64,000 bases of DNA from Bacteroidota bacterium. GTDB lineage: Bacteria > Bacteroidota > Bacteroidia > Bacteroidales > VadinHA17. Below, one piece after another: positions 9,740 through 63,729 of the stretch (its first letter is position 1; every line of letters begins with the position of its first letter). A model generated the notes under the pieces. The model worked only from the letters and a program-made list of their open reading frames with translations. It was not told the DNA's origin and searched no databases. The position numbers and the translations under genes are program-made. The stretch spans positions 62,001 through 126,000 of the forward strand of contig JADFDS010000042.1 in the NCBI GenBank assembly GCA_018262715.1, given 5' to 3'.

Positions 9740-9856
9740 TACAATGCTGTATGGCCTACGGTCAAATTTATTTTATGTTGCTCTTCTACAATGCTTTATG
9801 GCCTACGGCTAATCTGTATAATATGCTACTGGTCTACAATGCTGCATGCTCTGCGG
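9740..9856. repeat. Three copies of an intergenic repeat TACAATGCTKTATGGCCTACGG
   Basis: 9740-9761, 9787-9808 and degenerate 9835-9856; related copies at 16789-16865. Confidence 0.85.
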
Positions 9857-9861
9857 ATAAA

Positions 9862-9980
9862 ATCTCACATTGCAAATCGCACGTCTCAACTCCAAGTATT
9901 TTTTATTATCAGCCATCAACAGTCCTGCAAAGCTGTATTACAGGCCAAATTAATTCGCAACTCGCAATTCGCAACTCGCA
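9862..9980. repeat. Two 4x heptamer arrays
   Basis: ATCTCAC-ATTGCAA-ATCGCAC-GTCTCAA (9862-9889) and ATTCGCA-ACTCGCA-ATTCGCA-ACTCGCA (9953-9980). Confidence 0.8.
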
Positions 9981-9983
9981 AAT

Positions 9984-11495
9984 CTAAGCCTCCGGCTTCA
10001 TCTGCGGGAAGAACAGCACATCCTGTATCGAGGGCTGGTTGGTCATGAACATGGTGAGCCTGTCGATACCCATTCCCATTCCCGAGGTAGGAGGCATGGC
10101 ATATTCCAAAGCCCTGACGAAGTCCATGTCGATAAACATTGCCTCGTCATCACCCTTTTCCGAGAGACGAAGCTGATCCTGGAACCTCTCGAGCTGGTCG
10201 ATTGGGTCATTCAGCTCGGAGTAGGCGTTGGCCAGCTCCTTGCCGTTGACCATCAGCTCGAAACGCTCGGTCATACCATGCTTGCTGCGGTGTTTCTTTG
10301 TCAGCGGTGAGGTCTCCTGCGGGTAGTCAATGATGAATGTGGGCTGGATGAAGTGATGTTCGCACTTCTCTCCGAAAATCTGGTCAATCAGCTTGCCCTT
10401 TCCCATCGAGGGAGAGTGGCCTATCTCCATCCTGTCGCACTCCCGGCGCAGGTCATCCTCAGTCATGTCTGTTATGTCAATGCCGGCATATTCTTTTATG
10501 GCGTCGGTCATGGAGATACGCCTGTAGGGAGCCTTGTAGTCTATGACATGCTCACCGAGAGGCACCTTTGTGGTGCCGTGGAGGTCCATGGCCACCTTCT
10601 CAAGTATCTTTTCTGTGAACTCCATCATCCAGTTGTAGTCCTTATAGGCCACATAGATCTCCATCACTGTGAACTCGGGATTATGCGTGCGGTCCATCCC
10701 CTCGTTGCGGAAGTCCTTTGCAAACTCGTAGACTCCGTCATAACCGCCTACTATGAGACGCTTCAGGTAAAGCTCGTCCGCTATCCGGAGGTAGAGAGGT
10801 ATGTCGAGGGCATTATGATGAGTTATGAATGGTCTTGCTGCGGCACCGCCGGGAATAGGCTGAAGCACGGGTGTCTCCACCTCGAGGTAGCCATAAGAGT
10901 CAAAGAGCTCACGCATCGACCTGATTATCTGCGTGCGCTTGCGGAAAACCTCACGGACTTCGGGATTGATGATCAGGTCGACATAACGCTGGCGGTATCG
11001 CATCTCAGGATCAGTCACCGCATCGTACAGAACCCCGTCCTTTTCCTTTACTATGGGAAGAGGGCGGAGCGACTTGCTGAGGAGGGTCAGCTCCTTCACA
11101 TGAACGGTGATTTCGCCCATCTGGGTGCGGAATGCAAAACCCTTCACTCCGATGATGTCACCAATATCCAGAAGCTTTTTAAACAGGGTATTGTACAATG
11201 TTTTGTCCTCGCCCTGGCAGAGGTCATCACGACGTACATAGATTTGTATGCGGCCAGAAGAGTCCATCAGCTCGGCGAATGAGGCGTTGCCCATGATACG
11301 GCGGCTCATGATCCGGCCTGCCAGGCATACATCCGTGAATTTATTTTCAGTGTCACTGAATCCTGCCAGTATTTCTGCGGCCGAAATGTTAACCGGGTAC
11401 ATTGCAGCAGGATAAGGGTCTATGCCAAGTTTGCGTATTTCTTCAAGTGATTGCCTGCGAACCAGTTCCTGCTCGCTCAGTTGGGGTGTGCTCAT
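9984..11495 (-). CDS. lysS: Lysyl-tRNA synthetase (class II)
   Basis: YPAAMYPVNISAAEI, MRYRQRYVDLI, FRNEGMDRTHNPEFTVMEIYVAYKDYNWMME, GMGMGIDRLTMFMTNQPSIQDVLFFPQMKP. Confidence 0.98.
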   Translation of the reverse strand: MSTPQLSEQELVRRQSLEEIRKLGIDPYPAAMYPVNISAAEILAGFSDTENKFTDVCLAGRIMSRRIMGNASFAELMDSSGRIQIYVRRDDLCQGEDKTLYNTLFKKLLDIGDIIGVKGFAFRTQMGEITVHVKELTLLSKSLRPLPIVKEKDGVLYDAVTDPEMRYRQRYVDLIINPEVREVFRKRTQIIRSMRELFDSYGYLEVETPVLQPIPGGAAARPFITHHNALDIPLYLRIADELYLKRLIVGGYDGVYEFAKDFRNEGMDRTHNPEFTVMEIYVAYKDYNWMMEFTEKILEKVAMDLHGTTKVPLGEHVIDYKAPYRRISMTDAIKEYAGIDITDMTEDDLRRECDRMEIGHSPSMGKGKLIDQIFGEKCEHHFIQPTFIIDYPQETSPLTKKHRSKHGMTERFELMVNGKELANAYSELNDPIDQLERFQDQLRLSEKGDDEAMFIDMDFVRALEYAMPPTSGMGMGIDRLTMFMTNQPSIQDVLFFPQMKPEA

Positions 11496-18780: not shown

Positions 18781-18838
18781 GGTTATCGGTTATCGGTTAT
18801 GGTTATCGGTTATGGTTATCGGTTATGGTTATCGGTTA
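18781..18838. repeat. Tandem GGTTATCGGTTAT repeat array
   Basis: Units of 7/7/6/7/6/7/6/7/5 nt (GGTTATC/GGTTAT) read directly. Confidence 0.97.
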
Positions 18839-18843
18839 GGTGA

Positions 18844-19218
18844 ATGAAAAGTTATAAGGATCTTGACATATATAATGAGGCTTACAGGTTGGCGCTGGCT
18901 GTTCATGTTATGACACAGAAACTGGCTAAAGCAGAGCATTATGAGCTTGGAAGCCAGGTGCGAAGAGCTGCACAGAGTGTGAGATCCAATATAGTGGAAG
19001 GGTATGGCAGGAGAGAGTATAAAAATGAGTTCATAAGATACCTGATTTTTGCCAGGGCCTCATTGCTTGAAACCGGGTCTCATCTTGAGATGAGCAGAAG
19101 TTTGTACGAAAATATTGAAATTGCCGGATTGATCGAAGATTATAATCTGCTGGGTAAAAAGCTCGCTGCATTCATTCACTATGTGGAATCCTCCTGGATG
19201 ACCCCCCATGATAAATAA
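18844..19218 (+). CDS. Four-helix-bundle protein (S23 / TIGR02436-like)
   Basis: MKSYKDLDIYNEAYRLALAVHVMTQKL...ELGSQVRRAAQSVRSNIVEGYGRREYKNEFIRYLIFARASLLETGSHLEMSRSL is the typical family sequence. Confidence 0.93.
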   Translation: MKSYKDLDIYNEAYRLALAVHVMTQKLAKAEHYELGSQVRRAAQSVRSNIVEGYGRREYKNEFIRYLIFARASLLETGSHLEMSRSLYENIEIAGLIEDYNLLGKKLAAFIHYVESSWMTPHDK

Positions 19219-19251
19219 CAGACAATAACCGATAACGGAAAACCGACAACA
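19219..19251. repeat. Degenerate heptamer array, inverted relative to 18781-18838
   Basis: ATAACAGACA-ATAACCG-ATAACGG-AAAACCG; ATAACCGATAAC (19225-19236) is the exact reverse complement of GTTATCGGTTAT upstream. Confidence 0.8.
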
Positions 19252-21667: not shown

Positions 21668-21757
21668 AGGCGATAGGCATTAGGCAATAGTCATAAAATC
21701 AGCATGTTATTGCCAACGCTGTCACACTACTGCCTTCTGCCTACTGCCTGCTGCCTT
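21668..21757. repeat. Paired inverted 4x heptamer arrays
   Basis: AGGCGAT-AGGCATT-AGGCAAT-AGTCATA (21668-21695) and CTGCCTT-CTGCCTA-CTGCCTG-CTGCCTT (21730-21757). Confidence 0.85.
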
Positions 21758-21826
21758 TTTTTATCATCTTTCCCTTGACATTCTCGCTTTCCTGTCCTAA
21801 ATTTGATGGAGTAATTATGTCTCACC

Positions 21827-31478: not shown

Positions 31479-32027
31479 ATGGTTGAGCTGGACCGTACAA
31501 TATTCCTGTTTCTCAATTCACTTCACACGCCATTCCTTGACAGTGTGATGTGGATCCTGAGCATGCGTGCGGTATGGATACCGCTGTATGTGCTGATTAT
31601 CTGGCTTCTTGCGGAAAAATACGGGAAACGTGTCTGGATCCCGCTTGTTCTTGTGCCGTTACTGGTTCTGCTCACTGACCAGGGCTCCAACCTGCTCAAG
31701 AACCTCGTTGAACGCCCGCGGCCGTGTCATGAGCCCGCTCTGGCTGGCCTTGTACACACGGTGAAGGGATATTGTGGCGGGATGTACGGGTTTGTATCAG
31801 GGCATGCCGCGAACACCTTCGGTATAGCAGCATTCACAATCCCGCTGCTGCGGAGGAGTTGGTATACGTGGACGATTATTATATGGGCAACGGCTGTCTC
31901 CTATTCGAGGATATACCTCGGGGTGCATTATCCCGGCGATGTGCTCGGGGGAGCCCTGCTGGGCCTGGCTGTCGGCGCTGCACTGGCATGGACGGCACAA
32001 AAAATGAATAAAAGCATAAAACAATGA
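31479..32027 (+). CDS. PAP2 superfamily phosphatase
   Basis: KNLVERPRP, FVSGHAANTFG, SRIYLGVHYPGDVLGGALLG. Confidence 0.92.
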   Translation: MVELDRTIFLFLNSLHTPFLDSVMWILSMRAVWIPLYVLIIWLLAEKYGKRVWIPLVLVPLLVLLTDQGSNLLKNLVERPRPCHEPALAGLVHTVKGYCGGMYGFVSGHAANTFGIAAFTIPLLRRSWYTWTIIIWATAVSYSRIYLGVHYPGDVLGGALLGLAVGAALAWTAQKMNKSIKQ

Positions 32028-32761
32028 ACCTGATAAAGTCACTGTGGGTTTGGTTTTCAAGCATCACCTTCGTGCTGCTTGCCCTTCCCGTCGCGGTCAT
32101 ACTCTGGCTGCTGGCGCTTGCCTTTGACCGCCGCCGGCTGATGAACAACAGGTGGATGGTCATCCAGGGTATAGTGCTCACAAAGATGAGTCCTTTCTGG
32201 AAAGTAATAGTTGACGGCCGGGAAAAGCTTGACCAGAAACAGGCTTACATAATCATCCCCAATCATCAGTCGCTTCTGGATATCGTCTTTTTCAACATGC
32301 TCCGGCATCGTCTGAGGTGGGTTTCCAAGGCTGAGATCTTCCGCGTACCGGTAGTAGGGTGGGAGATGAAGATGGTCAAGTACATCGAACTGATCAGGGG
32401 TAACAAATCCAGCGTTGTAAAAATGATGGAAAAGTGTGTGGAGTCACTGCATGACGGAATCTCTGTGGTGATATTCCCCGAAGGTACACGCTCATTGACG
32501 GGCGCTATCGGAAAGTTCAAGACGGGCGCGTTCCAGCTTGCAGTGAAGACAGACAAGCCGCTGCTGCCCGTGCTGATTGACGGCACAGGCGAGATCATGC
32601 CCAAAAAAGGTGGAATCATTTTCCGGAACCGCCGCATTGTAAGGATCAGGGTCCTGGATCCCATCTTCCCGGGGCAGTTCGGCACCGGCGACCCGGAGGA
32701 ACTGGCCACAAGGGTACAGTCCATCATGGTTACCGCCATGGACCAGCTGCGAAGCGAGTAG
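32024..32761 (+). CDS. plsC: 1-acyl-sn-glycerol-3-phosphate acyltransferase
   Basis: IIPNHQSLLDIVFF (HX4D-like NHQSLLD) and VVIFPEGTRS. Confidence 0.92.
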   Translation: MNLIKSLWVWFSSITFVLLALPVAVILWLLALAFDRRRLMNNRWMVIQGIVLTKMSPFWKVIVDGREKLDQKQAYIIIPNHQSLLDIVFFNMLRHRLRWVSKAEIFRVPVVGWEMKMVKYIELIRGNKSSVVKMMEKCVESLHDGISVVIFPEGTRSLTGAIGKFKTGAFQLAVKTDKPLLPVLIDGTGEIMPKKGGIIFRNRRIVRIRVLDPIFPGQFGTGDPEELATRVQSIMVTAMDQLRSE

Positions 32762-32763
32762 CA

Positions 32764-32834
32764 TGTGAGATTTGAGATTTGAGATTTGCGAGTTTTGGTT
32801 TATTTGTCGCACATCGCAAATCGGAATTCGCAAA
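32764..32834. repeat. Paired inverted 4x heptamer arrays
   Basis: TGTGAGA-TTTGAGA-TTTGAGA-TTTGCGA (32764-32791) and TCGCACA-TCGCAAA-TCGGAAT-TCGCAAA (32807-32834), 15-nt spacer. Confidence 0.9.
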
Positions 32835-32919
32835 TCTGGGCACAATTCCCCCTGGTTGTTGATAAATCGGAAAGATTCGCCTTGCCTAATTCTTTATATT
32901 TGCCCCAAAATTTGGGATA

Positions 32920-34767
32920 ATGGACGGCAATTATTCTGAGGAGAACATTAAAACCCTTGAGTGGAAGGAGCATATCAGGCTGCGTCCCGGTATGTACATC
33001 GGCAAGCTGGGTGACGGCTCCTCACTTGATGACGGTATATATGTCCTGCTCAAGGAGGTGATGGATAACGCGGTTGACGAGTATATGATGGGTTTCGGCC
33101 GCAGAATTGACGTCAGCATCGTTGGCTCGGAAGTGAGGGTCCGCGACTACGGCCGTGGCATTCCACTCGGAAAGGTACTCGATGTCTCCTCCAGGATGAA
33201 TACCGGAGCCAAATATGACTCAAAGGCATTCAAGAAATCTGTGGGTCTCAACGGCGTGGGTATCAAAGCCGTCAATGCTCTCTCATCATCTTTTGTTATC
33301 AGATCTTTCCGTGACAGCCAGCTTAAGGAGATTGAATTCAGGTGCGGGGAGCTGGTAAGGGATGAGCCCCTGAGAAAAACTGAGGAAGAGAACGGCACAG
33401 AGGTGATCTTCGTGCCTGATGAAGCCATGTTCGGCAACTTTCATTACATAGCCGAGTACGTTGAGAGCATGATGAAAAACTACTCGTACCTCAATGCGGG
33501 TATGATCATCAACCTCAACGGCAACAAGATAGTCTCGCGCAACGGTCTCGTCGACCTCCTCAATGACAATATGAACTGCGAAGGCCTTTACCCCATCATC
33601 CACCTGAAGGGTGATGACATTGAGGTGGCCATGACGCACGGAACCCAGTACGGAGAAGACTACTACAGCTTTGTAAACGGCCAGCATACCTCACAGGGAG
33701 GAACACACCTCATTGCGTTCCGCGAAGCGATAACCCGCACTGTCAAGGAGTTCTTCAAAAAGGACTTTGACGTTTCCGATATAAGATCATCAATCATCGC
33801 GGCCGTCTCGGTCAAGATAGAGGAACCCATCTTCGAATCGCAGACCAAGACCAAACTGGGATCAAAGGATATGGGACCAAACGGCCCCTCGGTGCGTAAC
33901 TATGTGGTTGACTTCATCCGCAAGCACCTCGACGATTACCTGCACAAGAACGGTGAGACTGCCCGTATCATGCTGAAAAAGATCCAGGAGTCGGAGAAGG
34001 AGCGGAAGGCCATCAGCTCAATACAGAAACTGGCGCGTGAACGCGCGAAAAAGGTGAGCCTGCATAACCGCAAGCTGCGCGACTGCCGCATCCATTACAA
34101 CTCAAACGATGAGCGCCGGCTCGAATCAACCCTCTTCATCACCGAGGGCGACTCGGCAAGCGGCTCCATCACCAAATCGCGCAATGTGGAAACCCAGGCT
34201 GTCTTCAGCCTCCGGGGAAAACCACTGAACAGCTACGGCCTGACAAAAAAGATTGTTTACGAGAACGAGGAGTTCAATCTGCTTCAGGCCGCCCTCAATA
34301 TTGAGGAGTCTCTCGATGACCTCCGTTACAACTATGTGGTGATAGCCACCGACGCAGACGTTGACGGGATGCATATCAGACTGCTGCTCCTGACCTTCTT
34401 CCTGCAGTTCTTCCCTGACCTCGTCCGCAAGGGCCATGTTTACATCCTGCAGACTCCCCTGTTCAGGGTACGCAACAAGAAACTGACACGTTACTGCTAC
34501 TCCGATGAGGAGAGGCAAAAAGCAATAAAGGATCTCGGTCCTGACCCCGAGATCACCCGCTTCAAGGGGCTGGGCGAGATATCCCCGGATGAGTTTATTC
34601 ACTTCATCGGGAAAGACATGCGCCTGGAACCTGTGATCATGAAGAAAGCAGATCCGTATACCCAGTTCCTCGAGTTTTATATGGGCAAGAATACTCCTGA
34701 ACGTCAGGACTTTATCATTGACAACCTGCGGGTTGAGGAGGAAATTCCGGAAGCAGCCCAGGCGTGA
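32920..34767 (+). CDS. parE: DNA topoisomerase IV subunit B
   Basis: [55 protein letters not shown]; next to parC. Confidence 0.93.
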
Positions 34768-46967: not shown

Positions 46968-47112
46968 TAATCTGACCGGTATTACCGGTCATCACTTTCT
47001 GCGTGACCGTCTGCGTGGCTGCCATTATGCCCGCCTGTTCGCGCGCCCGCCCGCTTGTTCGCCCGCCTGCCTGCGTGTCTGGCCGGGCCGTGTGCCCGTT
47101 TGCACAGACCTC

Positions 47113-59856: not shown

Positions 59857-59930
59857 AGTCCCATAGCTCAGTTGGTTAGAGCGCTACACTGATAATGTAG
59901 AGGTCCCCAGTTCAACTCTGGGTGGGACTA
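59857..59930 (+). tRNA. tRNA-Ile(GAT)
   Basis: Cloverleaf: AGTCCCA/TGGGACT acceptor, GCTC/GAGC D stem, CTACA-CTGATAA-TGTAG anticodon arm, CCCAG-TTCAACT-CTGGG T arm. Confidence 0.95.
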
Positions 59931-59935
59931 CAGGA

Positions 59936-60003
59936 TTTGAGATTTGCGAATTGCGATTTGAGATTGTTGCTTAACTCGAAAATCGGGAATCGAAAGTCGA
60001 AAA
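59936..60003. repeat. Paired inverted 4x heptamer arrays
   Basis: TTTGAGA-TTTGCGA-ATTGCGA-TTTGAGA (59936-59963) and TCGAAAA-TCGGGAA-TCGAAAG-TCGAAAA (59976-60003), 12-nt spacer. Confidence 0.9.
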
Positions 60004-60010
60004 TAAAATT

Positions 60011-60090
60011 GGGGATTTAGCTCAGTTGGCCAGAGCATCCCGTATCCGCCGGTTGGCGGATCGGGAGGGTCAAGGGTACTGAATCCGGTT
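60011..60090 (+). pseudogene. Degenerate tRNA-Ala copy with palindrome in place of the anticodon arm
   Basis: First 27 nt identical to the intact tRNA-Ala; then TCCCGTATCCGCCGGTTGGCGGATCGGGA; GGGTCAAGGGT shared; T stem and 3' acceptor lost. Confidence 0.88.
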
Positions 60091-60102
60091 CTTTACAAAA
60101 TT

Positions 60103-60176
60103 GGGGATTTAGCTCAGTTGGCCAGAGCACCTGCCTTGCACGCAGGGGGTCAAGGGTTCGACTCCCTTAATCTCCA
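60103..60176 (+). tRNA. tRNA-Ala(TGC)
   Basis: Cloverleaf: GGGGATT/AATCTCC acceptor, CCTGC-CTTGCAC-GCAGG anticodon arm, AAGGG-TTCGACT-CCCTT T arm. Confidence 0.96.
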
Positions 60177-60180
60177 CGGA

Positions 60181-61755: not shown

Positions 61756-61865
61756 CACCCGCTTTTGAAGAAAAGCACGTTCCCTGAAAGAGTGATTTGA
61801 CAAGACTGGCTTAAGAGGAAAGACCTGAGAGGGTCAAAAAAAGTTGGAAAAAACTTTGAAAAAAG

Positions 61866-61897
61866 TTTGGTGAAGAAAAGTGAGTACAGTATCTTTG
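61866..61897 (+). promoter_or_regulatory. Putative rRNA promoter P2
   Basis: TTTG (61866-61869), 20 nt, TATCTTTG (61890-61897). Confidence 0.78.
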
Positions 61898-63647: not shown

Positions 63648-63729
63648 GTCCAAAAGTCCAAAAGTCTAAAGTCCAAAGGTCAGTTAAATGACCTTCAGAC
63701 CTTCAGACCTTCAGACCTTCAGACCTTTT
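63648..63729. repeat. Paired inverted octamer arrays in the 16S-23S spacer
   Basis: GTCCAAAA-GTCCAAAA-GTCTAAA-GTCCAAAG (63648-63678) and GACCTTCA x4 (63690-63721) + GACCTTTT. Confidence 0.92.

Follow-up and report, generated by a model that had tools for sequence, protein, structure and literature searches.

The plsC–parE heptamer element as a probable ORF-less member of an insert family with opposed G-inward arrays

The gap between plsC and parE in a Bacteroidota genome holds two short arrays of heptamers in inverted orientation, which we judge probably to belong, as a copy without an ORF, to a family of intercistronic inserts. The ends of these inserts are opposed heptamer arrays with the G-rich strand facing inward, and fuller members carry an S23p gene (PF05635) between them. 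Family architecture, polarity, association with PF05635, placement of arrays at insert boundaries, fast turnover and empty sites are all observed in the loci described below. We infer that copies without an ORF arise from, or rely on, those that carry one.

Results

The plsC–parE element

The window analysed here is a 64,000-nt stretch of one contig, whose relevant features are collected in Table 1. A sequence-only reading had described the element as 4 + 4 heptamer arrays around a 15-nt spacer (GTTTTGGTTTATTTG), and this proved correct letter for letter at 32764–32834. The left array starts 2 nt 3′ of the plsC stop codon (TAG, 32759–32761), and the right array stops ahead of the parE promoter region (about 32838–32919), which is conserved in congeners whereas the element is not. 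A topoisomerase IV A-type gene follows parE and supports that naming. The arms form an inverted repeat, G-rich strands facing inward, able to make a closing stem; folded as DNA the element reaches z = −4.2, a value matched by 0 of 200 shuffles, and folded as RNA z = −2.7. The copy has a T-run on neither strand and contains neither an ORF nor an ORF remnant. Its site lies outside 23S rRNA, and an Rfam scan of the window returned rRNA and tRNA only.

Table 1. Arrays, loops and genes discussed in the text, by position in the window
Feature	Position	Strand	Evidence
C-rich array TTCGCAACTCGCAA at the lysS 3′ end, one-sided copy	9952..9984	-	
Left GGTTATC heptamer array of the ORF-bearing copy	18781..18838	+	
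S23p / 23S_rRNA_IVP four-helix-bundle ORF, 124 aa	18844..19215	+	PF05635 8e-24; PDB 2gsc XCC0516 E=6e-9
Right inverted array ATAACCGATAACGGAAAACCGACAAC of the ORF-bearing copy	19225..19250	-	
Left TAGGCAR-type arm of the ORF-less copy directly after recJ	21668..21693	+	
Right CTGCCT-type arm of the recJ copy, then T-run	21727..21756	-	
Upstream gene, plsC-type acyltransferase	32024..32761	+	PF01553 7e-31, TIGR00530
Focal left arm, G-rich heptamers TGTGAGA TTTGAGA TTTGAGA TTTGCGA	32764..32791	+	sequence, direct reading
Focal spacer or loop, 15 nt, without ORF	32792..32806	.	sequence
Focal right arm, C-rich on the + strand, TCGCACA TCGCAAA TCGGAAT TCGCAAA	32807..32834	-	sequence
Downstream gene, parE/gyrB-type topoisomerase subunit	32920..34767	+	DNA_gyraseB + Toprim
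Left arm of the tRNA-Ile/tRNA-Ala spacer copy	59934..59965	+	
Right arm (TCGAAAA-type) of the tRNA-Ile/tRNA-Ala spacer copy	59973..60002	-	

Six congeners have no element at all in the plsC–parE gap, their flanks being too diverged to define base-exact ends. The closest congener carries the same word family, rearranged and with a different number of units, and other congeners carry TATTGCC or GACTGCC words. In five congeners (G015:C97, G020:C1, G007:C129, G013:C41 and G011:C274) a PF05635 gene lies ~3.6–3.7 kb upstream of plsC, apparently as an orthologous insertion; the corresponding place in this window gave no PF05635 match.

A family of period-7 arrays with fast turnover

That the element is one copy of a family was borne out in a 444-kb sample of this genome, which holds 27 non-coding tandem arrays of period 7 and 0–3 of each other period from 5 to 12; equal non-coding DNA from 250 kb of E. 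coli gave no period-7 array. Inverted array pairs with matching units within 100 bp numbered five at k = 7, one at k = 6 and none at k = 5, 8, 9 or 10, and five dinucleotide shuffles of the sample yielded none at any k, which together with the DNA fold upholds the earlier view of a non-random, 7-phased inverted element. The refuting outcome named with that view, comparable arrays in shuffled DNA, was thus looked for and did not occur. The claim of exactly four units per side was too strict: four is only the mode among 221 detected arrays, which span 2 to 23 units.

Copies of the focal word TTTGMGATTTGMGATTTG number 36 in this genome, and 17 of 22 genus genomes have it, with reversed-pattern controls near zero. 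Other sampled genera of the family have none, and across the phylum 9 of 200 genomes show it, with at most 7 matches each. The sampled genus genomes use many words, most commonly TAGGCAR, TTTGMGA and TYGGCAG, and several may succeed one another within one element (for example, L218 17404–17672). Units are gained, lost and changed fast across congeners, and words turn over likewise in the tRNA-Ile/tRNA-Ala spacer and in the gap after recJ. Similarity between copies ends at the arrays, with no conserved body outside them, and a mobile element with a conserved body was rejected on this ground. The median distance of arrays from a gene 3′ end is 30 nt, and from a 5′ end 112 nt; their density peaks in convergent gaps and is lowest in divergent ones.

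These properties bear on two alternatives. The arrays might be plain heptamer microsatellites, produced by polymerase slippage with a favoured 7-nt step in unconstrained intergenic DNA, their matched arms arising by hairpin-templated copying, with neither an element nor a function. Heptamers are over-represented among bacterial simple repeats, an excess for which Mrazek (cited in PMC4679880 and PMC4692102) proposed the polymerase footprint as an explanation, and the avoidance of divergent (promoter) gaps and the fast turnover suit this account. It does not, however, predict the inward polarity of the G-rich strand, its persistence when the arms carry different words, the association with PF05635 or the location of arrays at exact insert ends (below), and we regard it as rather unlikely.

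The second alternative is an intrinsic transcription terminator or a 3′-end RNA stabilizer of the upstream gene, as the proximity to 3′ ends and the density in convergent gaps could suggest. The T-run behind the right arm makes the recJ copy resemble an intrinsic terminator, and nearly every congener keeps the order G-arm, loop, C-arm and T-run there despite differing words. At two sites, arms also pair better with their own partner than with arms from other species (54 of 5,000 and 113 of 5,000 permutations as good), a result compatible with either selection on pairing or hairpin-templated copying. Against a general role, T-runs at C-arm ends (7 of 205 arrays) are rarer than background, which led us to reject it; a GC-rich stem followed by a T-run was found only at 21668–21763, and the focal copy has no T-run. 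Terminators in the tRNA-Ile/tRNA-Ala spacer would block an operon, the two arms differ in word in about 13 of 29 opposed pairs, and the plsC–parE gap is empty in six congeners. We consider termination improbable as the explanation of the family, although the recJ element may also serve as a terminator-like hairpin, to judge from its letters.

Several other repeats occur in the sampled sequences. Dispersed copies of CTACAATGCTTTAT, each with a small hairpin behind it that shows compensating changes (GGCCTACGG.., CCGCTACGCGG), lie at 9785, 9833 and 16836 in the window, at L025 13524 and at L032 13656; they often adjoin heptamer arrays and look REP-like. Arrays of periods 8 and 11 (GTCCAAAA, GACCTTCA, AAAAAAGTTTG) at 61837–61869 and 63648–63727 lie around the 16S gene and within the 16S–23S spacer. 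The tRNA-Ile and tRNA-Ala genes lie upstream of 16S (window 59857–60177; L267–L291), and their spacer in many congeners holds a repeated tRNA-like fragment (GGGGATTTAGCTCAGTTGGCCAGAGCATCCCG...GGTTCTTTACA), which is in tandem in G011. Imperfect GCCCGCCTGCTCGC repeats of period 16–20 occupy 47029–47071 of the window, in a convergent gap.

Opposed arrays point G-inward

Neighbouring opposed arrays present the G-rich strand inward in 35 cases against 2, of which 29:2 fall in this genus and two further genera (G029, G057) and 6:0 in other Bacteroidota. The pairs whose arms differ in word retain the polarity, which is therefore more than a matter of hairpin complementarity and belongs to the architecture. 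Single arrays, too, are directed away from the closer gene, by 75 to 25. Transcription-coupled polarity was rejected: in tandem gaps the G strand is directed away from a 3′ end in 31 cases and away from a 5′ end in 27, a near-even split that the direction of transcription does not explain.

A dispersed, inverted, intergenic and polar repeat recalls REP/REPIN elements moved by a Y1 transposase (RAYT), and G-strand-inward polarity resembles head-to-head telomeric tracts; repeats added by reverse transcriptase, or by end joining at breaks, belong to this class of explanation as well. But the families concerned are absent where arrays are rich: this genome and several array-rich congeners have no Y1_Tnp match, most array-rich congeners have no reverse transcriptase, and Ku is absent in 60 of 60 genomes. 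RAYT, reverse transcriptase and Ku origins were rejected accordingly and leave this class of explanation very unlikely. Directional array growth, which would give a decay asymmetry along the arrays, was rejected separately since they show none.

A regulatory repeat based on G-quadruplexes, as suggested for the GGGAATC arrays of Xanthomonas, would share much of the geometry: convergent pairs of about four units, near ORFs and few in divergent gaps (PMC4692102). The words TTTGAGA and TTTGCGA have no GG tract, so that no quadruplex is possible at the focal element, yet the geometry is unchanged. We give this explanation almost no credence; words without a G tract demonstrate that quadruplexes cannot be what generally underlies the convergent geometry.

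S23p genes lie between opposed arrays in Bacteroidota

An ORF-bearing copy (18781–19250) lies 14 kb from the focal element in the same window. Its gene encodes a homologue of Xanthomonas campestris S23p, whose structure is known (Table 1), and its position between a GGTTATC array and the inverse of that array makes the copy one of the same kind as the focal element, its loop being occupied by a gene. The S23p four-helix bundle is structurally similar to Avd, the accessory protein of diversity-generating retroelements. Searching with the window protein alone (phmmer) retrieved few relatives among the sampled loci, and Pfam matches and a small HMM were needed.

All four readable PF05635 genes in the Bacteroidota loci (window, L174, L235 and L038) sit between opposed arrays, the right arm at L038 falling just below the score cut-off and being called by eye. 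The L235 gene has hexamer arrays and is sited between tRNA-Ser and tRNA-Pro. From coordinates only, the PF05635 gene at C91 of the congener G001 (G001:C91, 100408–100701) is enclosed by G-inward arrays of the focal word TTTGCGA at 100277–100301 (+) and 100764–100781 (−), and in this genome, at G000:C21, a TTTGCGA array at 98310 adjoins the PF05635 gene at 98483–98776. PF05635 genes number two in this genome, and ORF-less arrays are far more numerous. Few arrays occur in G010 and G014, near-complete congeners that lack PF05635, and few also in G021, which has one such gene.

Arrays flank S23p genes in other phyla

Eighteen plasmid PF05635 genes from Cyanobacteriota, Chloroflexota, Spirochaetota, Alphaproteobacteria and Bacteroidota were retrieved before their flanks were inspected, and arrays of period 6–9 were sought on both sides within 150 nt of the gene. 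Such arrays flank 18 of 22 PF05635 genes (five phyla), G-inward in 13. Small control genes from this genus have both-sided arrays in 5 of 268 cases, none of them G-inward, and none were found at 187 control genes from other Bacteroidota or at 62 from E. coli. The difference between PF05635 and control genes (Fisher 1e-20) is to be read with controls that are mostly Bacteroidota, heptamer arrays being common in cyanobacteria generally; a cyanobacterial control of 29 genes in one 50-kb stretch gave two both-sided cases, one of them G-inward. The PF05635 gene of Pseudanabaena (L339) is without arrays, and a few flanking arms elsewhere are not G-inward. In 50 kb of Nostoc punctiforme pNPUN01, both PF05635 genes have clean G-inward heptamer arms built of two different words, and the long heptamer arrays of that stretch are mostly these arms.

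Plasmid relatives reveal the limits of the insert. In Calothrix brevissima the array–S23p–array unit extends exactly from an integrase stop codon to the next start codon; in Nostoc carneum and Aulosira a short gap occupies this position. Picosynechococcus 7003 has an S23p copy with 8-mer ends between cas10 and cmr3 that is missing from 7002. Comparison of filled and empty sites for these two ORF-bearing copies identifies the arrays as the ends of the insert. The multi-copy S23p gene of Nostoc flagelliforme gave no information on insert boundaries, having been duplicated together with the surrounding plasmid backbone.

Two of the S23p genes lie within CRISPR operons (L344, L349), one at the cas10–cmr3 site of Picosynechococcus 7003 and the other in Anabaena cylindrica, between cas2 and cas1. 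On pNPUN01 an S23p element (L361 31796–33050) directly adjoins xisH/xisI; TAACTGA heptamers and XisH/XisI have a common patchy distribution (MacGregor 2015, PMC4679880).

Discussion

As an ORF-less member of the S23p insert family, the focal copy would behave in outline as follows. Once transcribed, the opposed arms would pair into a long imperfect stem enclosing a loop or an ORF, and the insert would act like a ribosomal intervening sequence, removable from RNA or harmless between genes, including tRNA genes, while its arrays quickly gain, lose and change units. Such RNA processing of heptamer-ended inserts is proposed by analogy with ribosomal intervening sequences removed by RNase III.

Several observations stand against this reading, among them that the focal copy has no ORF, that ORF-less arrays far outnumber PF05635 genes, that the Pseudanabaena gene has no arrays and that some arms are not G-inward. 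The 15-nt focal loop may never have held an ORF, and the copy could have arisen by deletion, depend on other copies or be the product of an array-making process.

A wider reading, which we offer tentatively as possible rather than probable, is that minimal mobile elements occur across phyla, each a single S23p gene bounded by G-inward heptamer arrays and accompanied by ORF-less swarms. S23p would recognize, make or maintain the repeats, and much of the bacterial heptamer excess would consist of the termini and remnants of such elements. This would join two unexplained features, the dominance of tandem heptamers among bacterial simple repeats and the role of the common orphan S23p proteins. If S23p genes and heptamer arrays are parts of one element, both puzzles are open to direct testing, and a likely origin emerges for many intergenic arrays. 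A limited literature search found no paper linking heptamer arrays with S23p in general beyond the Coxiella case discussed below.

Comparison with known systems

REP/REPIN elements with RAYT are likewise dispersed, intergenic, inverted and polar, but the copies described here have no conserved palindromic body and their genome has no Y1 transposase. Cyanobacterial STRR repeats are also tandem, intergenic heptamers; Mazel et al. (1990) are said to have described them as direct repeats, with no mention of ends, of polarity or of a gene that goes with them. PMC4692102 cites heptanucleotides from Calothrix PCC 7601. The TAACTGA repeats of Beggiatoaceae, Cyanobacteria and some Bacteroidetes resemble the present arrays in being intergenic heptamers scattered patchily across phyla, and differ in being mostly direct, upstream of start codons and of one word, with one inverted case reported (MacGregor 2015, PMC4679880).

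The G-rich heptamers of Rehm et al. 2015, GGGAATC in Xanthomonas and GGGGA(C/T)T in Nostoc, for which G-quadruplexes were considered, are heterogeneous 7-nt units with a mode of four, in convergent pairs near ORFs, rare between divergent genes and fast to turn over among relatives (PMC4692102). In contrast, the words described here have no G tract, form no G-quadruplex and are many per genome. The parts of PMC4692102 consulted contain no link to S23p, although the S23p protein XCC0516 (PDB 2gsc) is from Xanthomonas campestris.

Against the 23S rRNA intervening sequences that carry an S23p/IVP ORF (PF05635), as in Coxiella burnetii, the present copies lie between genes and have heptamer arms on both sides, and the focal copy has no ORF. 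The two systems share an inverted stem around a loop, which in full copies encloses the S23p ORF. In Coxiella, tandem GACAGAT heptamers stand just upstream of that ORF, and the intervening sequence is excised by RNase III (PMC4990558).
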